A stretch of DNA of 22,188 nucleotides from a virus. The notes below the pieces were generated by a model. That model was not told the origin of the DNA, searched no databases, and worked only from the letters and a program-made list of their open reading frames with translations. The stretch covers positions 1 through 22,188 of the IMG/VR virus record IMGVR_UViG_3300024257_000061. The stretch is one strand, 5' to 3'. Below, piece after piece: positions 1 through 22,188 of the stretch (positions are counted from its first letter, which is position 1; the number at the start of each line of letters is the position of its first letter). Both the position numbers and the translations under genes were made by a program.

Positions 1-850
1 CCACCTTTATTGCTAAAGCTTCAAGCTGTGACTCTTTTAAAGCAAAGTCAGGATCATTGGCTCTAAACTGATTAACCATGTTTTGAATTGCACCACCTTG
101 CTCTTGCACTGCCCGCTCTTGATCTTGCTTCTGCCTCTCCTGTTGTTGAGCCTCATGCTGGCGCTGGTTATCTTGAACTTGCGCCTGAATGCGTCTTTGT
201 GCCTCCTTGTTGGCATAATCTTCATTCAACTCACCATCTTCATAGTCCTTCTTTAAGTCATCAAAGCGCTCGTATGCGTCAGGCGTATCACCAATACGAT
301 CAGTCAGGGTTTTGTCTAAACTTCTAACAAAATCTCTAGCCTGTTTAACCTTATCAATGTCTGTTGAGTTTGCCATAGCCATCATGTCAACTGTTTGACT
401 GAAGTCGGAGCTATTCATGCCAGTGCTTTGCACCTGCTGTCTAAAGTTATCAATCACCTGCGTCTGTTGTGCGCTAGCCTCAATCAATTCTTTATTCTTG
501 TGTGACAAAGACTGGAAGCGCTCACGAGTACGCTCATTAGTAATTGACTCCATAATCTCAGCATCATCAGCCTCTTGCTTTTTGGCTTCTGCTTCAGGGT
601 CTGCCTCAACCTCAGCTCCTGCTTTAGGCTCAGTAACAGGCTCATCCGCAACCTCTTCAGGCGCAGGCTCTTCTTCAGCTGGCTCATCTTCACCAGCCAA
701 AATGGCCAGTGCGTCATCTCCAGTTACCTCGGCATCATCATCAATCTCATCAGCAACAACCTCTTCTTCTACTGGTGTGACCTCATCAACAACAGCCTCA
801 ACCTCAGGCTCGTTCAACACTTCTTCGTTTCCTTGTCCTTCTAAATCCAT
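1..850 (-). CDS. Scaffolding-like protein (partial, runs off left edge)
   Basis: Open frame from an ATG at 850-848 through the left edge; 283 codons are visible and the 3' end is missing. The start is supported by an AAGGGG Shine-Dalgarno about 7 nt upstream. The first ~100 residues are extremely acidic (Glu, Asp, Ala, Val, Pro), then a Gln/Arg/Lys-rich, helix-forming stretch suggests coiled coil. The gene lies 17 nt after the portal gene. Terminase-portal-scaffold-coat is the P22-type head order, and an acidic, helical, non-globular protein here is what a scaffold looks like. Scaffolds fill the procapsid, guide coat assembly and leave before packaging. Function is inferred from position and composition; I see no diagnostic motif. 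The coat gene should lie beyond the left edge. Confidence 0.75.
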   Translation of the reverse strand, partial: MDLEGQGNEEVLNEPEVEAVVDEVTPVEEEVVADEIDDDAEVTGDDALAILAGEDEPAEEEPAPEEVADEPVTEPKAGAEVEADPEAEAKKQEADDAEIMESITNERTRERFQSLSHKNKELIEASAQQTQVIDNFRQQVQSTGMNSSDFSQTVDMMAMANSTDIDKVKQARDFVRSLDKTLTDRIGDTPDAYERFDDLKKDYEDGELNEDYANKEAQRRIQAQVQDNQRQHEAQQQERQKQDQERAVQEQGGAIQNMVNQFRANDPDFALKESQLEALAIKV

Positions 851-867
851 CTCTTAACCCCTTCTTA

Positions 868-2790
868 TTAAATTTGTGGCATTTGCTGTGGCATACCTTG
901 TGGCATTCCCATTGGCATTTGCATTTGCTGTTGCTGTGGTGCTTGCATTTGTGGGATAAACTTACTTGAGTCTCCATCAATACCAAAACGCTCTAGCGTC
1001 TCTTTCAGGTACTCTTCCAAGTAACTAACATCCATGTTTTGCGCTTGACCTTGTGCAATTTGCATCGCAAGGTTTTGTAATACTGGTAGCAACTCAATCC
1101 ATGTGCTTCTGTCTTCCATCTCATCAGGCTTGCCAGTTGATCCAGCACGCACCGAAACATTACAGTAGTTGTAAATCTTGTCAGCTTTTTGCTTGATTGA
1201 GCAATTAGGCATGTATGAATCGTCATACCAAGTTGCACCCTCGCCAGCAATCTCTTTAACCATACCAACATCACAACCCAGTAAGAAACACTCAGCTGTG
1301 TAATTAGCAATGGCTGAAATGAAGTCCTCTAGTGTGTCGCGTTGCTCAGAAACTCTAGTCGCACGACCATTGTTCATGATTGATGCTTCTGTTGCTGTCT
1401 TAGCCTTCACAACACTGCCCATATCAGCTTCTTGCAAGCCTGATACGATCTGCAAGTCACGCATGATCTGCGTTGTGTCGTATGATTTTGGATCAATCGG
1501 AATGTGCACACCCTTTTGTAACGCCTGATCAATTGGCCTGCCTTCAGTATCAATCGCTAGTATCTCTGCTGTCTCTGATACAGTGAACTTCTTAATATCA
1601 CCTTCTTTTAGGCCGTTAGCCACATAGTGCGGTTTGTTCATCTCTCTGTGCTTTTTAAGCTTGGTACGCGTGTCTGTGTACTCATCCTGCAAAGGCAACC
1701 ACTGTTCTAGGTCTGTTAATGGCTGGAACTCATCTTCAAGCTGGTTAAACGCCAAACCAAAGAATGGATACCACTGCTCACCAACATTTTCAGGCGTCCA
1801 AGATAGTAGAGGCGTTTCAATACCCTTAACAATCAAGTGAACACGATTCTGATCTTTATCCCAAACTTCATACACTGCGACTGGCTTTTGATTCTCATTA
1901 CCTTTAAGCGTGTTATTGCCAACACTGTTGTTTAAGTTGCTGTCTGCGATAGAGTTGTAATCGTTGTCCTTCTTATCTTTACCCCACTCGTGCGTTGATA
2001 CACCTGACCAGTTAGCATCAGGAAACTCACCCATCAATTCACTCTTAGACTTCCAAATACGCTGGAATATGCGACCAGCTTTATGTAAATCCGAGAAGCG
2101 ACCAACACTAGGAGAAACAAACACATCTTCAAAATCAATATTGTCAATCACCAAGCCTTTGCTCAATACAATCTCAGGTGTATTTAATAAGCCTTCTTCA
2201 ATCTGCTCTAGGCGTGCCTTTTGCAATTCGTTATTCTCATCAGCCTCCAGCTCTTTCTCAATACCATGAGCCATGTGCAAGTTGTCGCGAGTATCAGCCA
2301 GCGCTGTTGTTGCTTTAGGGTTTGGGCCAGTTACATTCTGCAAGTGGACTTTCACCCAGCCAATTGAACAAACCTTAGAGCTTCTTACTGCGTTCTTGAA
2401 GATGTGCTTGGTGTTGGCTTCGTTGAATTGCTGATTTAGTACAATCTCTAGCGTTTTAGCTAGGTTTTTCTTGCCATCACCTTCATACATACCTGACTCA
2501 GGGTTTGAGGCCAGCTTCTCATTTACATCCACTGCAATCTCAGGTGATTTTGCATAGACATGAGGAATCAATGACTGCAAGGTTGAGTTAACCAAGTTAG
2601 TTTTTACATTGTCCTCTTTAAACTGTTCGCCTTTGATATATTGACGATTCTTTTTGATCTTGGAATAAATACCATTCTCATCATCGTTAATCTTGTTAAT
2701 TTCATCAATCTCTTTGAAATACTGAAGGACTAGCGCCTTGTCCTGCGCTGGGTCTTTCACCACGTTTACTACTTCTGCTTCTATTTCCAT
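868..2790 (-). CDS. Portal protein, P22-like podovirus type
   Basis: 640 aa, close to the size of large podovirus portals. It would form the dodecameric ring at the capsid vertex through which DNA is packaged and ejected. Visible features are a helical, charged N-terminus, a central region with a long stretch around LEQWLPLQDEYTDTRTKL, and the segment AKTATEASIMNN, of a kind common in this portal family near the crown helices. The last ~28 residues are almost only Gln, Met and Pro, a low-complexity tail that may be disordered. It follows terminase large with a 23-nt gap holding an AAGGG ribosome site and precedes the scaffold-like gene. Assignment rests on family resemblance plus order; I am confident of portal, less so of the exact subfamily. 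Confidence 0.85.
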   Translation of the reverse strand: MEIEAEVVNVVKDPAQDKALVLQYFKEIDEINKINDDENGIYSKIKKNRQYIKGEQFKEDNVKTNLVNSTLQSLIPHVYAKSPEIAVDVNEKLASNPESGMYEGDGKKNLAKTLEIVLNQQFNEANTKHIFKNAVRSSKVCSIGWVKVHLQNVTGPNPKATTALADTRDNLHMAHGIEKELEADENNELQKARLEQIEEGLLNTPEIVLSKGLVIDNIDFEDVFVSPSVGRFSDLHKAGRIFQRIWKSKSELMGEFPDANWSGVSTHEWGKDKKDNDYNSIADSNLNNSVGNNTLKGNENQKPVAVYEVWDKDQNRVHLIVKGIETPLLSWTPENVGEQWYPFFGLAFNQLEDEFQPLTDLEQWLPLQDEYTDTRTKLKKHREMNKPHYVANGLKEGDIKKFTVSETAEILAIDTEGRPIDQALQKGVHIPIDPKSYDTTQIMRDLQIVSGLQEADMGSVVKAKTATEASIMNNGRATRVSEQRDTLEDFISAIANYTAECFLLGCDVGMVKEIAGEGATWYDDSYMPNCSIKQKADKIYNYCNVSVRAGSTGKPDEMEDRSTWIELLPVLQNLAMQIAQGQAQNMDVSYLEEYLKETLERFGIDGDSSKFIPQMQAPQQQQMQMPMGMPQGMPQQMPQI

Positions 2791-2813
2791 TTTTGGTTTA
2801 CCCTTGTTATTAT

Positions 2814-4316
2814 TTATCCGTAAAGGTGCGCAAAGCTACCTTCAACCACTCTTCCTTCTTGTATTTCCTTCTTTGGTTTCGTCCTTCTACTAACTAACGA
2901 ATCTGTAACGCTATCCCACATGTGATCTTCCTGTGTGGTATCAATATCTTCTCCATTCTTGGGGTCTCTCATCATCACTGGCACTGTCCTAATAAAGTGT
3001 TTACATGTGTCAAACACAAAGAACCCATCACCACCAACAACCTTTCCTCTCGCATCTGTCTCTGAATTGTTCAGTCTTACGACCAGCTCATGCGCTTTAT
3101 CAACACGATAACCATGTCCGCTATTTCCCTTCTTGGCTGGCTTGTTAAAGTAAATACCAGCTCTAATAAAATGTTCACTCACGCCAATTGTTGCGCCATT
3201 GCTCGAAGGCAAGTCACCAATATTGTTTTTAAACTCAACACCCTTGTCTCTCTCGGCTTTGTCTAGTTTTAATATCTGTTCAGCAACTTGCATCGCTGTT
3301 TCATGTGTGCCAACGTTAGGCTCTCCACCCCAGCCATACAACTCACGATATAAATAAACATTGCCATCAAAATCTTGTGCGAACCAGCATAACGAATATG
3401 GCTTATCAAAACCCCAGTCCAATCCTCTCCAGCGTTTCCAGCCAGTGGGAATAGGAAAGGGTTTAAGCAGGTGTATCTCAGGCTTCCAAATACCATGAAG
3501 GTAAGCACCACCAATCGCACTTAAAGGCTTTTGCTGGTATAAACTCTCCCAGTCTCTACTAGGTAGTGACTTGCGTATCTGCTGTAACTTAGGCAAAGGG
3601 TATCGTTCAGTCCATAGCGCATCGCCTGATTTACGCCCTAATTCGTCTTTACCCTCAGCAATGGCTGGCAAAGTAATAACCTCCCAATTCTCGTGCTGTT
3701 TCTCTCGAAGTAGGTAGCCAATCAGATCGTCTTCATGCCAACGTGTGCCAATCAATATGATCTTGCCATCAGGCATCAGTCTTGTATATGCGTCAGCGTT
3801 GTACCAATCCTTTGTACTTTCTCGGAATGTATGCGACTCAGCTTCTGCCCTTGATTTAACTGGATCATCAATCAACAACAAGTCAGCACCTTTACCAGTG
3901 ATCGCACCACCAACACCAACCGCACTTAAAGAACCACCCTCTTTTGTTTCAAATTCACTTTTAGATTGTGAATCATCGCTCAGTATTGAGCCAAAGATAG
4001 TTTTGTAAGTGTTTGTCTTGAGTAAATTACGCACTCGTCCACCAAATCGCTGGGCCAGTGAAGAACCGTAAGCACTAAGAATAACCTGACGCTCAGGGTT
4101 ACGACCTAAAAACCAAGCAGGCATCAGCTCACTAACGATCAGTGACTTAGAGTGTCTTGGTGGCATTGAGATAATCAAACGACTAATCTCTCCACGTTCC
4201 ATCGCCTCAAGCTTATCGAACACCAGTCTATGGTGATCGGCCACTTCAAACTTTGGAAAACACATAACGCTAAACGCGCCTAGAGAAGTACGCGCAAAAT
4301 CATTCATATCACTCAT
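2814..4316 (-). CDS. terL: Terminase large subunit (packaging ATPase/nuclease)
   Basis: 500 aa, normal for the family. The N-terminal ATPase has a Walker A-like MPPRHSKS near residues 51-58, Walker B LLLIDDP near 146-152, and a coupling-type motif GTRWHEDD near 190-197. The C-terminal RNase H-fold nuclease begins near WRGLDWGFD (Asp about 300), with a late acidic candidate in DHMWDSVTD. The protein would dock on the portal, pump DNA into the procapsid using ATP and cut the concatemer. Its ATG overlaps the terminase small stop by 4 nt (ATGA), indicating translational coupling. The variant P-loop (PPRHSKS instead of GxxGxGKS) is usual for this terminase group. Confidence 0.95.
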   Translation of the reverse strand: MSDMNDFARTSLGAFSVMCFPKFEVADHHRLVFDKLEAMERGEISRLIISMPPRHSKSLIVSELMPAWFLGRNPERQVILSAYGSSLAQRFGGRVRNLLKTNTYKTIFGSILSDDSQSKSEFETKEGGSLSAVGVGGAITGKGADLLLIDDPVKSRAEAESHTFRESTKDWYNADAYTRLMPDGKIILIGTRWHEDDLIGYLLREKQHENWEVITLPAIAEGKDELGRKSGDALWTERYPLPKLQQIRKSLPSRDWESLYQQKPLSAIGGAYLHGIWKPEIHLLKPFPIPTGWKRWRGLDWGFDKPYSLCWFAQDFDGNVYLYRELYGWGGEPNVGTHETAMQVAEQILKLDKAERDKGVEFKNNIGDLPSSNGATIGVSEHFIRAGIYFNKPAKKGNSGHGYRVDKAHELVVRLNNSETDARGKVVGGDGFFVFDTCKHFIRTVPVMMRDPKNGEDIDTTQEDHMWDSVTDSLVSRRTKPKKEIQEGRVVEGSFAHLYG

Positions 4317-4654
4317 AAAAGCTTCTTGAGATTCTCCCTTTGTGTATCGGTTAAGTCATCAGCCAAATCAATACTGGTTACTTCTGCGATCATCTCTACT
4401 GCCTTACGCTTAGGTGCAACATACTGGGCCAACTCTTTACAGGCGTTAAACTCCATCACCTTGTCTTTACTGTCCTCAGCTTCTTGCGCCAACCTAACTA
4501 AAGACTCGATAGGGTCATAGCCAAGCGCGTTCAGCTTATCGATAATGTTTTGTGTTTTCTTGTTAGGCGTTCCTTTTTGTCTTCCACCTCTACGTTCACC
4601 CTTCTTAGATCCTCCACGCGAAGACTTGCCACTACTATTTGCTACTTTAGCCAT
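4313..4654 (-). CDS. terS: Terminase small subunit
   Basis: 113 aa. It starts with a Ser/Gly/Lys/Arg-rich basic tail containing GRQKGTPNKKT, typical of small terminases. A helical section follows with ALGYDPIESL and ELAQYVAPKRKA, which resembles the conserved core of a widespread small-terminase group. It should recognise the packaging site and recruit the large subunit. It ends in an ATGA overlap with terL. No separate pac or cos site could be identified by eye. A frame read in reverse across this gene is an antisense shadow. Confidence 0.88.
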   Translation of the reverse strand: MAKVANSSGKSSRGGSKKGERRGGRQKGTPNKKTQNIIDKLNALGYDPIESLVRLAQEAEDSKDKVMEFNACKELAQYVAPKRKAVEMIAEVTSIDLADDLTDTQRENLKKLL

Positions 4655-4662
4655 CTCTACCC

Positions 4663-4830
4663 TTATTTATCATTATCAGGATGTGATTCATTCAGCAGGT
4701 AATTAGCCTCTTGCAATATCTGCTCAAACTTGTAAATCTCATCAATCTCTCTCGCATCTGCAACGCCTTGCTCTGAGATAACCTTGATCACTTCTAGCTT
4801 TGCCCTACAGTCTTTCATTGAATGGATCAT
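4663..4830 (-). CDS. Small hypothetical protein, 55 aa
   Basis: ATG at 4830-4828 overlaps the NinB-like stop as ATGA, and TAA lies at 4665-4663, 8 nt before the terS start. The 55-residue product is charged and helical, starts MIHSMKDCRAKLEVIK and ends in an acidic tail (HPDNDK). I recognise no domain. The precise stop/start overlap and the way it fills the only gap in a tightly packed operon are the evidence that it is translated. A DNA-packaging accessory role is possible from position only. Confidence 0.6.
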   Translation of the reverse strand: MIHSMKDCRAKLEVIKVISEQGVADAREIDEIYKFEQILQEANYLLNESHPDNDK

Positions 4831-5246
4831 GGCGCTTTAATTCCCATTGCTAACCAGTAATAATCAGGATAAGGCAACTTTATTCCTAGCCCTGCACAAA
4901 GCCTGTCAACTTCCTCTAGGTAACGTGCGAACTCAGCTACTTTCATATCCTTAGTTTCTTTCAAGCTTGTAATCTCTTTTTCATTAAAACCAGTAGTTAC
5001 GTCATACCCTAGCAATTCTTCAACTAAAGCTTTGTGCGTCTCTTTTTTGGAATAACCTAGCTCCTGCTTAATGTAGTCATCAATCCACATAAAGTACAGT
5101 TTGTTTTGTGCGCCACTGCGTGTAAGTTTGTCTTCTTTAATCTCTACCATCGCTTTATCAACCTTTGGATTCTCTAAGAAGTAATCTTGTACCAGTGTCT
5201 TGAAGATCATCTCTTTAGGTTTGGTTCGTTCAATTACTCTTCTCAT
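4827..5246 (-). CDS. ninB: NinB-like recombination protein
   Basis: 139 aa, close to lambda NinB length. The family pattern is visible: a basic segment with SGAQNKLYFMWIDD (compare the QNRxLW region of NinB) near 43-57, then MKVAEFARYLEEVDRLCAGLGI near the C-terminus, matching the family's EFAExLExI...G pattern. NinB (lambda Orf) binds single-stranded DNA and SSB and promotes phage recombination at the annealing/loading step. Here the partner SSB and an annealing protein are encoded in the opposite arm. ATGA overlaps join it to both neighbours. Assignment is by motif memory, so homology should be treated as likely rather than proven. Confidence 0.75.
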   Translation of the reverse strand: MRRVIERTKPKEMIFKTLVQDYFLENPKVDKAMVEIKEDKLTRSGAQNKLYFMWIDDYIKQELGYSKKETHKALVEELLGYDVTTGFNEKEITSLKETKDMKVAEFARYLEEVDRLCAGLGIKLPYPDYYWLAMGIKAP

Positions 5247-14698: not shown

Positions 14699-14755
14699 AT
14701 CCACCTCTCCAACACCTTCTTTTTACCTCTCAACATACCCCAAAAAAGAGGGCAA

Positions 14756-14775
14756 ACGTGCTAAAAAACGTGCTA
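14756..14775 (+). repeat. attP arm sites, Int side (two copies)
   Basis: ACGTGCTA at 14756-14763 and again at 14768-14775, 12 bp apart and in the same orientation, separated by AAAA. They match the three sites on the other side of the core. Likely binding sites for the N-terminal domain of the integrase. Confidence 0.75.
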
Positions 14776-14805
14776 CTCGCTCTACAGACCCTACTAAGAG
14801 TACAT

Positions 14806-14886: not shown

Positions 14887-14930
14887 ACGTCCAAAACCTA
14901 CCTCCCAGTACGCCTAGGTTGTAGCGTTTC

Positions 14931-14962
14931 GCGTGCTACAAAACGTGCTAAAAAACGTGCTA
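14931..14962 (+). repeat. attP arm sites, distal side (three copies)
   Basis: GCGTGCTA at 14931-14938, ACGTGCTA at 14943-14950 and at 14955-14962, each 12 bp apart and in the same direction as the pair near int. The last copy lies only 15 bp from the stop of the giant minus-strand gene. Confidence 0.75.
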
Positions 14963-14977
14963 CTTTTTTCTGGGTAA

Positions 14978-17900
14978 TTATTTCTGATTATAGAGCTTCA
15001 AAAATTGACGTTGCTTTTGGCTAATAGTTTCGATAAACTTTTTAGCTTCAGCATCTTTCCCTGACTTTTTAAGATTGCCATATCCCTTCCAATATTTACC
15101 AATCATCTTTTCAAACATAACTGCTTTTTGCCACATTACGCGATCTTTTGATTTATTTCTAATTGAAACATCAATAGCTTCGTTAAATCTATCAGTCAAA
15201 GAATAGTCTGTACGATTCTTAATTACACGTCTAACAAAAGGAATGTCATTAATCTTCGCGCTGTCATCTTGCAACTTCTCAGGCAAGTGTACTGCGCGTC
15301 TGATAAATGATCCAAAGCCACCTAGTAAATAGTCAAAAGTATATTCGAGAGATTCAGGGTGTATGTTTGCAAGCTTGCCAGTACCTGTGTGTGTTTCATC
15401 TCCGCCACTTAGGTGGTGTAAGAATTGAGACATTTCCACAGCCCATTCGTTTGTGCCTTTTTTATAATCATAAGGCGCTGGCGTTGGATGCTTGCTGTAC
15501 TTATCCTCTTTATAGATCTGACCACCATAGAAGTTTTTGTTGTCTTTAAGATCAACAAAAGGCAATTGCATGATCGTAGGCAACATTTCTTCCATTGGGT
15601 TTTCAGTTGAAATAATATCAACTGGTGCTAGTGAATACATAACACTACCCATCATTTCAATCATATCATCATAAGGGTCTAGCTTAACTTGAAACTCGTT
15701 GTCGACATCAATAGAGGCCAACGTGTATTTAGCAACCTGATTGGCCAAAGTATTAACCATAGCCAAGTTAAGAGGCAATGGAACATGTGCCATCTTATCC
15801 TCTGCAACCATAACGTTAAAGCCAGTGTTGCGTTGGTATGCTGGAATGTTCTGATAATCATTTTCACCATCATCATCGTCATCGCCCATTAGCATCATTT
15901 GCATCATAGCATTCATCGTCCAAACACCAAACGCTATATATAACGAGTGACGAACCTTCTTATGCTTGAATGATTCAATCGTTCTCTCTGCGCCCTGAAC
16001 TGCTGGGTTAACAAACAACCATGTAGCCTTCATCCAACCTGATTGATTACCCTTCATGTTGAAGTCTAACGATACATTCTTAGCGATAAATGACGCGCGA
16101 TCCATTACCTGACGCTCTGCTTTAGTTAGCTCACTAGGTTTGATATGATGGCCTTTAGGGAAGTTTTCATCTAACAAGGTTCTAAAAATAGCAAGTCTAA
16201 TGCCGTTCTCCATAACCTCGTTAGTTTTCTTAACTTGCTCCATTAACAATCTAACACCCTTTACTGGGTTGTAATTCGCACGAGATATGTTTTTAATTCT
16301 AGCTTGGATGTGTTTATTGGTTTTTTGGTAGTCTGTACTTACCACTGACCAGCCAGTCTTTCCACCAAATTCTCTTAGCAACGCAAAGTCACCAGTCTTA
16401 TCATCACCCCATTGATATTTAGCAATATCTTTCCATGCCTTAGGAAGGTTTTTCATTACCTTCTTCTTCCCATTTTTCATGTTTTGAAACTCAGGGTACT
16501 TGTCCATTTGGAACATCACTGTGCCAAAGTCACGCACTGGGTTGGTAAACAAGGCGAACTCAGGATTGTACATAGTTATCATAGAAGATAAAAATCTCAT
16601 ATACTGTGCCAGCCACTCACCAGCAGTGCCTTCTAAACTTTTAGTGCGCTCATTACGCAGTTGCTGAATAATTCTTTGAGCAACTTCAGTTTTAGGCTTA
16701 ACCAATACACGAACAGGTTTTCCATCTTTATTTTTGCGAGTGTTGTCATGTACAATAAAGTCATCTTTATCAATAGACCTATTGTAAACAACCTCAACCA
16801 AACCAGTTTCAGGATTAAGCTTCTCTTTGTAAGAGACAGGGTTCATGTCAAAGTCACGAGAACTGCCTTCATAAGAGTTAATCATATTAAGAAGACCACG
16901 CTCAATGTTAAGTTGTCCAACGCTCTTTAGTAGGTCTCCTGTCTCTCTTAGTAGGTTAGTAACAACATCACCTGATTCAGATTTACGTCCTAACGCCTGT
17001 TGTTGCTTGCGTTGTCCGCGACCAACACCACTTGGACTATCTGAGTAAGGATTGTAGAAAATGCCAGCATCTTCAATGTTTCCAAATTCTTTCCAAGAAA
17101 CGTAATTAGGCTCGCGCTTGTTATACATGTTAATGTTTGCTTGAGTATCTAAACCAAACTCAACTTTAAGCTTATTGTTTCTAGCGATAACTTTACGATA
17201 CCACGCTTCAACTTTTTTCAAGCCTGCTAGTTTTTCTGCTGAAAGACCATCAATATATCTAACGCCCTGAGCTTCCGTCCAGCCTGCGTATTCCTTGATA
17301 GATTTATCTTGTCTGCGATCACGCATCATTTTCAGTCTTGCGCCAATAGCTTTAGCTTTCATATAGCTATCAAAGTCTTTCATGGTTAGCTTGTTTGACT
17401 TTAGATTCTGCTTGTACTGATCTTCAAAAGACTCTAACAACATCTCTGTCATTTCCTTAACACCAGCATTCTGAGTTTTTAACTTCTCATACAAAGTGTT
17501 TTTTCCAGTCAGTTGTTTTTCATAGTGCTTCAAGTAATGATCAGTATTTTGGATATGCTCAATAGCATTACCAACTTTAGTTACCTCTACTTTTTTGCCA
17601 CCATCAAAATCTAATCTTTGTTTTGACGGACCACGCTTGGAAGCCTGCGGTTGATCTAAACCTTCAAGCTTCTTAGTATCGCGCTCCTTGGTTTTATCAT
17701 TAATCTTATTGCCAAAATCAAGATCATCATCACCTTGACCGATAACTGCTTTATTATCTTTACGAATAAAGCTATCTTTATTATCTTTTTTAGTCTTGTT
17801 GCTTTTGGTTTGAAATTTAACAGCGCCATTATTTAAAACATCTAAAGAAGTTTTGTCACCCTTTCTAGCCTTGATGTACTGACGCATAACCTTAGCCATT

Positions 17901-17980
17901 ATGTCTTGTGTCTTAATAAGATCGTCAGTAAAGAAAACAGCCTTAGATTCGCTTCTTAGCATATCATGCTGTCTTGTCAC
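14978..17980 (-). pseudogene. 3' part of a split giant polyvalent protein (1000 codons)
   Basis: Open frame of 1000 codons. Its first 44 residues repeat the end of the upstream frame because of a 121-bp tandem duplication, so it is best read as the C-terminal part of one gene. Its GTG start has no convincing ribosome site. Contents: a basic, low-complexity linker (about 55-130), helical regions, then TNPVRDFGTVMF near residue 470-485 in a segment resembling the LPD38-type domain of large polyvalent phage proteins. A hydrophobic patch (SLYIAFGVWTMNAMMQMMLM) is followed by a DDDDD run. It ends FLKLYNQK. Such proteins are thought to ride in the virion and enter the cell with the DNA. If the duplication is an assembly error, this is simply the end of an intact protein. 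Confidence 0.7.
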
Positions 17981-18100
17981 CCTTTCTAGCCTTGATGTAC
18001 TGACGCATAACCTTAGCCATTATGTCTTGTGTCTTAATAAGATCGTCAGTAAAGAAAACAGCCTTAGATTCGCTTCTTAGCATATCATGCTGTCTTGTCA
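17853..18100. repeat. Perfect 121-bp tandem duplication
   Basis: Bases 17853-17979 equal 17974-18100 over 127 bp at a 121-bp offset; the hexamer TTGTCA sits at the left end, the middle and the right end. No mismatch was found. 121 is not divisible by 3, so the second copy shifts the frame and creates the stop and restart that divide the giant gene. Confidence 0.95.
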
Positions 18101-21100
18101 TTTTTCCAGCTTTATCGAGCAATTTAGCAATCCAAGTGCCAATCCATCTAGCAATCTTTTTGTAAGTTGCCATGTTTTCAACAGCCACTTTTTTCCAAAA
18201 CATTTCACTGTTCCAGTTGTCAGCCATTAGATCAGCAACAAACTCTTCACGCACACCATCAAGATCAAGCAGTTTTATACCTATTTTTGTCATGTCTGCG
18301 TCTAGCTGGTTTTTGTATTTATTAAACCCTTTGTCATCAACAACAGATCTTAGCGACTTAACAATCTGATCGAACAGCTCAGGGTTATCTCTGCGCATCT
18401 CATGAACCATTTCATGACCGATCACTGAAATATGTTGTTGCTCTGAATCCTCGTTAACAAATATAGCGTTAGGCCTACTGCCTATTACAGCGCCATTAAA
18501 CCTATTTAATGCTTCATCAGTTTTGACTGGTGTGATTCTTTTATTGAACAAGATTTCAAGCTCTGTGCGCTCCTCTTGAGACATATCCAGTCTTCCTTGG
18601 GAGATTTGCACATCCTTGACTGGCTTTCTAAAGGCGCGTGCCAAAGCAAGTCTAAAGTGTTTGATGTCTTCTTTGTGCGCTTGAGTAAATTCAGTATCTT
18701 GTTCATTAGTTGAATCATGCTTTAAACTTTCCTTTGTTTTAGTTTGGAATAGTACAGTAGGTGAGCCGTCTTCAGGAGTAATGTCAGATTCATACCAAGT
18801 GTTGCCCTCGTTATCAGTAATCTCTCTAAGATCAGGCCTTAGTTTTTCTAGGTATTTATAGAACACGCCCTTGGTCTTTGTTTCAGGGTCATAACCATAC
18901 TTGCGAGCAATATCTTGATACCCGTTTCCATTAGGAACGTCAGAAAGTTTAAAGTTTTCCTTATCCATGCCAGTTGCGTATGACTCATCGTAAACATCCA
19001 AGTGTTCGCCATACTCCTGTGCAACCACCACATAATCTATACCATCGTAATCATATATGTAGTACGAACTATCAAAAACCGCCTCAAGTTGATCAGCAGG
19101 ATTGTCTTGTAAAGCCCCTTTGTATTCATCATAATATTCGTCACTAAGGGTTTGTCCTACTCCATATCCACCATATCCATAATTCATTAATTCTGTTATA
19201 TCAAGAGCTTCTAATTCAACCTTGACATTAGATAGATCGGTTTTCTTTTCGTCATTTTGCTCAATATAATCTCTGCGACCTACTATATCTTTAAACAATC
19301 TTTCTCTAAACTCATCCACATCAACATTGTATTCAAAGTCTTGATGCCAGTTTGACGCTTCTTCATCAATAAAATCTTCAAGACGAAACTCTCTAACACC
19401 ACTCTCTGCGCTTGCTATTTCATAGCCACCATCTTCACCATAATCATTTGTCATGATCGCGTCCATGCCTAGGTGTGTAGTTACAGTATCACCAATAGAC
19501 TGCTCTCCATGGACCAAAAATCCACCTTCTCCATCTTGCTCTACATAACCTTCAATATATGAAATTGTCTGTGGTGTTGGGAATCTAATCACTTTAGAGC
19601 CGTCTCTGTGAGCGCCCTTGATTGCTTCTTGAATTGTCACCTTATAATGGTCTTGCTTAAAGCCTGCGAATTGATCCGCTTTGTCAATTTCCAATTCTTG
19701 TTGCTTGGTAATATCTGCATTCGCATTTGATTTCTCTATTGCTTGTGCTTTTTCAATATGGCTCTCTATGATTTTAATATAAGGCGCTACATTTTCATTA
19801 GTCCAAAGTTCAACTTCTGTTGGTAATAGTCCACTAGAGGCGTGCTTCATTTCACGAAGCATAGAATTTATAGCTTTCTTTTGGTTGTTATCTGAGTTGT
19901 TATCTCTTTGGTAAGTTATAAGGCTTCCAAATTGAACCCCAGTATCTCCATTATCTAGCACTCTATGAAACGCTATTAGCTTCTCTGAAACAACAGGGAT
20001 ATTGTCACGATAGTAATTACCTTCACGCGCATATTTATTGTCAAGACGTTTAGTGATACCTTTTGCTTTCTTAGAAAGGTAGCCTAATCTTACTTTTTGG
20101 TTGTCAACAAATCCATCTAGTACACTAACAAGTTCATCTAAATTGCCAGCTGTTTGAACCCTGACAGGAACGCCAGCCTCTACAACTACAGGATCTGATT
20201 CAGAGCGCTTATACTTATAACTATCCAAAGTCAAACCGTATTCCTGAATTGAAGCTATACCACGATCTATATACCCACGCATTCCTAGATCCTTTAGATC
20301 AGCCAAAACCTTCACAGAGTTTGTATCAGTTTCCCTATTGTTTCTAGCGCCTGCTATCTGATGTAGATCGTAGTCAATAATACTTATAACCCTATCTATA
20401 TAGTCAGTTTCACCTTCAAACATTCCTGATATTTTTTCTAGGCCATTCAAGCGTTCGATTAGTGGTATCAAATCAACATTAGATATATCACCACTATTAA
20501 GGCTGTCCACTAGGTCAGCGACTGCATCTCTAATCTTAGTGTAATTTTCTTTACCAAGCTTGTTATTGTCTAAACTCCTAAGTGTTGTTGCATCATCATA
20601 AAGTTCAGAATCCCTTGTAAGATAGTTGTCTTTAGAGTTTTTAACAATTTCTTCTTCCTCTTGCTTACGAAGCTCTTTGTTAGATCGAGTAAGCGACTTT
20701 CTGACACTAGCCTTGTTAATATTTTGCATTGTGTCAGATTGATACTCAAGGACATGAGTGATTTGATCTTCATTCTTTTCAATACTCAATGTGCCTTTAT
20801 CATAAGCCAGCATCATTTCTTTAAGCTGTATGTTTGAAACTTTATTAATCTCTTCTCTAAGCTTTAAAACTTCATCATCTATCACATCTTTAGATAGTGT
20901 TGGTCCGTTTCCTAAAATCCTGTTAAATTTATGAATCCAATGATCGTAAAGATGACCGTCATGAGGTATAGTCTTTTCGCCATCCTTAATAATATGAACA
21001 TCGTCAACATTTAAAGTTCTTCTGTAATGCGATAGCATGCCAGCGTCTTCAGTCTTTCTATTTGCGAAGTTATCTATGTAGGTTTGTGCTTCTTCCTCAG

Positions 21101-22188
21101 TGTTGAAATCTGCGAACGTGCCTGATTCAAGGTTATCTGCGTTTAAATCTTTCAAGGTGACATAATACTTGTCTTGGTCAACATACTGTGCTTGTCCATC
21201 AACCTCATGTGAGCCAGCACTAATCTTTCTAATCTCTAAATCTTTACTGGTTGTTGTCTTATCAAAGTCACCACTAAAATGTCCTTTCTCACCATGATTA
21301 AAATCAGTATTTAAAATGATTGTTTTTGAGTTTTCGCTATTGGCATTTAGATCAATATTGTCAGTGCCATAAGTGCTATACGTGTCACTCTCAATAGTTT
21401 CAAACTGAAGTAACTTGCTTTCCATTGCTTTAATAAACGCAGGGATGCTAATCTTTTTCGCATCTTTAAACTCAGGCATTTGCATTACCTTATTAACTAT
21501 ATTTTTATCTCTTGTGGACGCTTGCTTCTTTCCACCAGCTAATAAGTTATCAAAATGTCCACGCTTAACAAACTCTTTACCGTTCGCCTGTTTTTCAAGA
21601 TAATCAATCATTCGAGTGGTGAACCTTCTACCACCACTTTTGACCGAGAAGTTAATGTCACCAGCTTTCTTATTGGTGTTATACCCCCACTCATGCAAAT
21701 CACCTGCTGTATTAAGCTCGCCTGCTTTTACTTGCTTCTCGATAATATCAAAACCTTCACCTAATACATGTTCACCATGTTTATTAGCATAGTCTTTACT
21801 TGTTGAAACCCAATCGCCATCATTAATACCTTTAGTGCCTATTGGTACTGCTCTGTAAACATTCACCTTAGCATTAGGATTTCCTTTTGAGGCCTTCATT
21901 ACAGAAATAGTTTGAGCGTCTGCATTGGCGTATTCACCACCCATTCCATAGTATCTAGCAAAGTTAGGGTCGCTTGCCTCGTCAGGGAATATCTCAGAGA
22001 AATCATCTAATGAGTTTTTACCTTCAGGTTTGGGTGCTGAGTGTGAGCCTTTGTAGTCTTTCACCGAGAAGTTAATGTCGCCATCAAACTCATCATCAAA
22101 TTCTTCAGCCAAATTGTCATTCTCTGATCTGCGAACGCCAACAAACCCACTGTCTTTTTCTACAATGTCATAGTTAGCAGTTAGGCCG
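17964..22188 (-). CDS. Giant polyvalent protein, N-terminal part (open at right edge)
   Basis: The frame is open from the right edge to a TGA at 17966-17964. A TTG at 22112 has been used as start below for numbering (1382 codons), but the frame continues upstream for at least 25 codons without a stop, so the true start is outside. Modules: an ART-like domain about 84-145 (YRAVP with Arg87, WVSTS at 101-105, Glu141 in HEWGY); twin linkers GDINFSVK at 11-18 and 151-158; long acidic/helical stretches; a segment KVTIQEAIKGAHRDGSKV like one seen in other polyvalent proteins; a boundary ending VLFQTK; and a zincin HEMVH (His1233, His1237) with Glu1290 downstream. The last 45 residues come from the duplicated 121 bp. 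It is probably a virion-delivered multi-enzyme protein; the family is known, the exact role is not. Confidence 0.8.
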   Translation of the reverse strand, partial: GLTANYDIVEKDSGFVGVRRSENDNLAEEFDDEFDGDINFSVKDYKGSHSAPKPEGKNSLDDFSEIFPDEASDPNFARYYGMGGEYANADAQTISVMKASKGNPNAKVNVYRAVPIGTKGINDGDWVSTSKDYANKHGEHVLGEGFDIIEKQVKAGELNTAGDLHEWGYNTNKKAGDINFSVKSGGRRFTTRMIDYLEKQANGKEFVKRGHFDNLLAGGKKQASTRDKNIVNKVMQMPEFKDAKKISIPAFIKAMESKLLQFETIESDTYSTYGTDNIDLNANSENSKTIILNTDFNHGEKGHFSGDFDKTTTSKDLEIRKISAGSHEVDGQAQYVDQDKYYVTLKDLNADNLESGTFADFNTEEEAQTYIDNFANRKTEDAGMLSHYRRTLNVDDVHIIKDGEKTIPHDGHLYDHWIHKFNRILGNGPTLSKDVIDDEVLKLREEINKVSNIQLKEMMLAYDKGTLSIEKNEDQITHVLEYQSDTMQNINKASVRKSLTRSNKELRKQEEEEIVKNSKDNYLTRDSELYDDATTLRSLDNNKLGKENYTKIRDAVADLVDSLNSGDISNVDLIPLIERLNGLEKISGMFEGETDYIDRVISIIDYDLHQIAGARNNRETDTNSVKVLADLKDLGMRGYIDRGIASIQEYGLTLDSYKYKRSESDPVVVEAGVPVRVQTAGNLDELVSVLDGFVDNQKVRLGYLSKKAKGITKRLDNKYAREGNYYRDNIPVVSEKLIAFHRVLDNGDTGVQFGSLITYQRDNNSDNNQKKAINSMLREMKHASSGLLPTEVELWTNENVAPYIKIIESHIEKAQAIEKSNANADITKQQELEIDKADQFAGFKQDHYKVTIQEAIKGAHRDGSKVIRFPTPQTISYIEGYVEQDGEGGFLVHGEQSIGDTVTTHLGMDAIMTNDYGEDGGYEIASAESGVREFRLEDFIDEEASNWHQDFEYNVDVDEFRERLFKDIVGRRDYIEQNDEKKTDLSNVKVELEALDITELMNYGYGGYGVGQTLSDEYYDEYKGALQDNPADQLEAVFDSSYYIYDYDGIDYVVVAQEYGEHLDVYDESYATGMDKENFKLSDVPNGNGYQDIARKYGYDPETKTKGVFYKYLEKLRPDLREITDNEGNTWYESDITPEDGSPTVLFQTKTKESLKHDSTNEQDTEFTQAHKEDIKHFRLALARAFRKPVKDVQISQGRLDMSQEERTELEILFNKRITPVKTDEALNRFNGAVIGSRPNAIFVNEDSEQQHISVIGHEMVHEMRRDNPELFDQIVKSLRSVVDDKGFNKYKNQLDADMTKIGIKLLDLDGVREEFVADLMADNWNSEMFWKKVAVENMATYKKIARWIGTWIAKLLDKAGKMTRQHDMLRSESKAVFFTDDLIKTQDIMAKVMRQYIKARKGDKTA

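Follow-up and report, generated by a model that had tools for sequence, protein, structure and literature searches.

Introduction

Reversible duplications inside genes are already known, and in S. pneumoniae sequence duplications in cap8E and tts control phase variation (Waite et al. 2003, as cited in PMC13410964). Among phages, polyvalent proteins that carry LPD38 and MPTase domains have also been described (Iyer et al. 2017, PMC5512222). Contigs from de Bruijn assemblers, for their part, may have ends that overlap by exactly k, and a JGI-style metaSPAdes run steps through k = 33, 55, 77, 99 and 127 (PMC11584781).

The locus considered here lies in a window of 22,188 bases, which is an entire IMG/VR record with the label linear, and bears a likeness to each of these systems. 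As in the pneumococcal genes, we see an apparently spontaneous duplication of coding sequence within a gene that could be lost exactly, but the pneumococcal duplications are tied to a switching phenotype whereas the present case is known from sequence alone; it would be a further example without evidence of function. It resembles the polyvalent proteins of Iyer et al. (2017) in encoding a giant phage protein with LPD38 above the Pfam cut-off and a mid-protein HExxH, and differs in that the gene is split by a duplication and the MPTase assignment is by motif only. With contig ends that overlap by k it shares a 127-bp exact repeat, equal to the k = 127 of JGI metaSPAdes, but here the copies are offset by 121 and lie within the contig, not at its ends.

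A 121-bp tandem duplication

Repeat comparison within the window showed that 17853-17979 and 17974-18100 are 127 identical bases at an offset of 121, with zero leftward extension of the match. The first-pass annotation had reported both this match and the presence of TTGTCA at its left, central and right ends, and both observations were reproduced. The duplication is made up of two 121-bp units and a common 6-bp border:

17853..17973: first 121-bp unit; the exact match continues to 17979
17974..18094: second 121-bp unit; the exact match continues to 18100
17853..17858: TTGTCA, left microhomology
17974..17979: TTGTCA, central, common to both 127-bp copies
18095..18100: TTGTCA, right microhomology
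near 17974: central junction sequence, GCTGTCTTGTCACCC

The units adjoin, are identical and have TTGTCA at all three borders, which is the form of a slippage-type tandem duplication. A chance repeat was ruled out because, the duplication aside, the longest exact direct repeat in the whole window at offsets of <3 kb is 24 bp. As a single strand, the unit is somewhat more prone to fold than its shuffled versions (z -2.49), a weak signal that was not used as evidence.

One giant gene in two reading frames

On the minus strand, the duplication cuts a single long gene into two ORFs, the first of 1407 aa and open at the contig edge, the second of 1000 aa. The parts of this gene are as follows, L002 being a related record:

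17964..22187, minus strand: N-side part, 1407 aa, open at the contig edge; ends at the new stop TGA 17966-17964
14978..17980, minus strand: C-side part, at most 1000 aa from GTG 17980; 68-73% identical to L002
17960..17962, minus strand: ATG in the C-side frame, one base past the new stop; possible restart site
15233..15865, minus strand: LPD38 domain, residues 706-916 of the C-side ORF; PF18857, E 6.7e-27
18402..18416, minus strand: HEMVH, HExxH motif of a zincin-like peptidase; motif only

The N-side frame reads through one full unit before it meets the TGA, and the C-side frame is open from TAA 18022-18020 with GTG 17980 and ATG 17962 as available starts; each ORF holds the complete duplicated segment, and there is no further break across the 1407 + 1000 codons. 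The stretch from 14978 to 22112 is 7135 bp, and subtraction of 121 leaves a one-unit frame of 7014 bp, or 2337 codons and a stop, which agrees with the restored frame previously calculated from TTG 22112. That frame had also been expected to run past the contig edge. Alignment with L002 bears this out: TTG 22112 is not the true start, about 830 codons lie farther upstream beyond the edge, and by homology the full gene exceeds 3000 codons.

L002 (IMGVR 3300001680_000663) is about 70% identical, is the only relative found to hold the giant gene and encodes one unbroken 3008-aa protein. The N-side ORF of the window matches its residues 829-871 and 864-2112 (67.9% identity over the long segment) and the C-side ORF matches residues 2068-3008 (68.4%), and both halves align with it almost end to end. 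The duplicated segment is single in L002, with zero trace of a second unit. Because this relative has the segment once in an unbroken ORF, one copy is very likely the ancestral state, as judged from one relative. The earlier view that a single gene had been split by the duplication is thereby upheld, and the unduplicated allele that was to be looked for in related phages is present in this relative. Whether the duplication is real or an artefact, the locus should be annotated as one split gene and not as two. A junction of circular contig ends was ruled out on two grounds: the alignment with L002 stays collinear across the site, and both ends of the window are unique sequence.

Other searches returned little. 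An exact 21-mer from the unit had no other match among viral contigs, so that this population is represented over the site by one record, no near-identical phage record was found, a scan of genome contigs gave no host or prophage relative, and a repeat search for more relatives gave only an already-found contig (as L270). A very close relative, record 3300025602_000116, matches 838-5050 at 99.6% DNA identity and is without the giant gene.

The PF18857 (LPD38) match scores 95.2 bits against a cut-off of 27, in keeping with a phage polyvalent protein. The HEMVH motif of the N-side ORF, which marks a putative zincin-like MPTase domain, is also conserved in L002 and has no Pfam match. Together, LPD38 and HExxH in the translated sequence fit an injected 'polyvalent' phage protein, and injection of the giant protein is probable. 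The predicted structure around the joint has low confidence (mean pLDDT 42.9) and was not used as evidence. Separately, about 58 charged residues that follow the duplicated segment (about 17620-17810) are missing in L002, and this stretch appears to be a variable linker between conserved parts.

Comparable repeats in IMG/VR

The comparison sample was drawn from IMG/VR by one arbitrary 14-mer scan and three targeted scans, in which a 9-mer had to recur at a fixed spacing; with the relatives it comprises 3.47 Mb among the matches listed, the targeted scans not being random samples. Among these matches, tandem or near-tandem exact duplications with offsets of 109-139 were present in four records:

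L203: offset 120, exact run 120
L280: offset 129, exact run 130
L317: offset 123, exact run 123
L351: offset 123, exact run 117

All four offsets are multiples of 3. Duplications of approximately this size occur in IMG/VR without a tie to k. For loci with an exact repeat of at least 50 bp at an offset of up to 1 kb, the offset was divisible by 3 in 57 of the 60 among the matches listed, a set that includes the window itself and some loci that are related to each other. Among the matches listed (3.47 Mb, three targeted scans included), no tandem duplication inside a contig showed a run of 127, although this is not enough sequence to exclude an artefact that is rare. Internal runs of 127 at an offset of 207 were found in L380 and L382, and these are one diverged repeat in two records. 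The L195 contig begins, from base 1, inside a 25-bp tandem array and shows an exact run of 127 there, which is what a contig that terminates at a k-sized repeat would be expected to show. The perfect 123-bp tandem duplication at L317:3013-3258 contains a terminator-like hairpin (GGCGCCGGGACCCCGGACACCCTCCGGGGCGTTTTTTT).

Origin of the duplication

We propose that a recent 121-bp tandem duplication arose in this phage gene through misalignment at TTGTCA. We place the probability at about 0.6; this value and the lower one that we hold for an assembly artefact are our own judgement and not computed posteriors. Misalignment at the 6-bp TTGTCA during replication or repair would have led to 121 bp being copied twice, with the duplication present in DNA molecules of the sample. 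Because 121 is not divisible by 3, this event would shift the frame by one base and split the giant polyvalent-protein gene into two ORFs, and deletion of exactly one unit through the 127-bp repeat would bring the frame back. A real duplication is supported by the 6-bp microhomology at an exact 127-bp run with an offset of 121, by the single copy in the unbroken ORF of L002 with which both halves align, by the lack of any other break in the two ORFs, and by the similar-sized near-perfect tandem duplications in L203, L280, L317 and L351. In addition, a walk through a de Bruijn graph uses only words that are present in the reads and, therefore, the junction should be in the reads unless scaffolding or gap filling made it. 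Counting against a real duplication are the length of the exact run, which is the last k of JGI metaSPAdes, the broken frame as compared to 57 of 60 loci in frame among the matches listed, and the single record of this population over the site (exact 21-mer, viral contigs). A broken frame is more readily explained by an artefact or by an allele that does not last long. If the duplication is real, the allele is probably young, perhaps a minority and transient one, and not an evolved switch; it would represent another tandem duplication that breaks a frame and was sampled before it could be lost or purged, in the gene for a probable injected protein. Of the two readings offered in the first-pass annotation, that of a recent duplication mediated by microhomology agrees with TTGTCA at the borders and with copies that are 100% identical, but the phase variation attached to it found no positive support.

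The other reading, an assembly artefact, is a serious possibility to which we give less weight. Under this explanation the unit is single in the phage and was written twice by a wrong 6-bp overlap, either when two contig ends with a common 127-bp word were joined or when a gap was filled. The run of 127 equals the final k of JGI metaSPAdes, which may not be the assembler of this record, the contig-end run in L195 fits k = 127 assemblies in the collection, and the duplication breaks a gene that is intact in L002. However, plain joining of ends gives an offset of 127, as had been remarked previously for untrimmed contigs, and not the observed 121. Joining could therefore produce an offset of 121 only from a 127-mer that has a border of 6 bp, and of the about 21,900 127-mers of the window outside the duplication, 19 (about 0.1%) have a border of this length or longer. 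A joiner capable of finding the 6-bp overlap should also find the 127-bp overlap, and since graph walks are confined to words in the reads, an artefact would have to stem from scaffolding or gap filling. The suspicion that 127 reflects an assembler's maximum k is in keeping with metaSPAdes and with L195, but an internal tandem run of 127 was absent among the matches listed (3.47 Mb of IMG/VR). Literature searches found nothing direct on such an assembly artefact or on such duplications in phages. Should the duplication prove to be artefactual, broken giant genes in metagenomic phage contigs would need checking against reads.

That the duplication is a reversible switch kept up by the phage, or a working fission of the injected polyvalent protein, is very improbable even when both are taken together. 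In an evolved switch, the population would retain alleles with one and with two units, and slippage would turn the giant protein on or off. The arithmetic allows this, as loss of one unit would restore the frame, and the pneumococcal capsule genes (Waite et al. 2003, as cited in PMC13410964) provide a precedent for phase variation by duplication. We nevertheless hold a switch to be highly unlikely: no second allele was seen with an exact 21-mer among viral contigs, L002 is without a trace of a second unit, and reversibility alone is no evidence of selection because any tandem duplication can be lost. Fission, in which both halves are separate working proteins and translational coupling starts the C half anew at ATG 17962 or GTG 17980, is the least credible of these explanations. 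One base separates the stop at 17966-17964 from the in-frame ATG that follows it, the split falls between the HExxH region and the ~58-residue stretch absent from L002, and zero residues are lost because both halves carry the duplicated segment. Against this, AGAAAGG is poorly spaced for either start, as it touches GTG 17980 without a gap and lies 18 nt from the ATG, the structure model at the joint is of low confidence, and selection is not readable because the copies are identical. If either a switch or a fission were true, particles with and without the full-length protein would coexist.

Phage setting and other repeats

The window is a fragment of a tailed, probably temperate phage because it encodes a terminase, a portal, an SSB, a Sak-like annealing protein and an integrase; no tRNA was found in it. 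A 24-bp repeat, AAACGTGCTAAAAAACGTGCTACT, is exact at 14754 and 14941 (sites 14754-14777 and 14929-14964) and sits in the interval that separates the integrase gene from the end of the giant gene. These sites are possibly arm or attachment sites of the integrase.

A 25-bp direct repeat (21639-21663 and 22059-22083, 92% identical) has a spacing of 420, equal to 140 codons, and flanks an in-frame stretch that is absent from L002, whose sequence here matches the outer side of each copy. This stretch resembles a module that the giant gene has either acquired or lost. Sequence searches of Pfam and the PDB gave nothing useful for it; it matches phrog_2579 (E 5e-31) and mycobacteriophage and Vibrio phage proteins, and from its motifs our guess is an ADP-ribosyltransferase fold.
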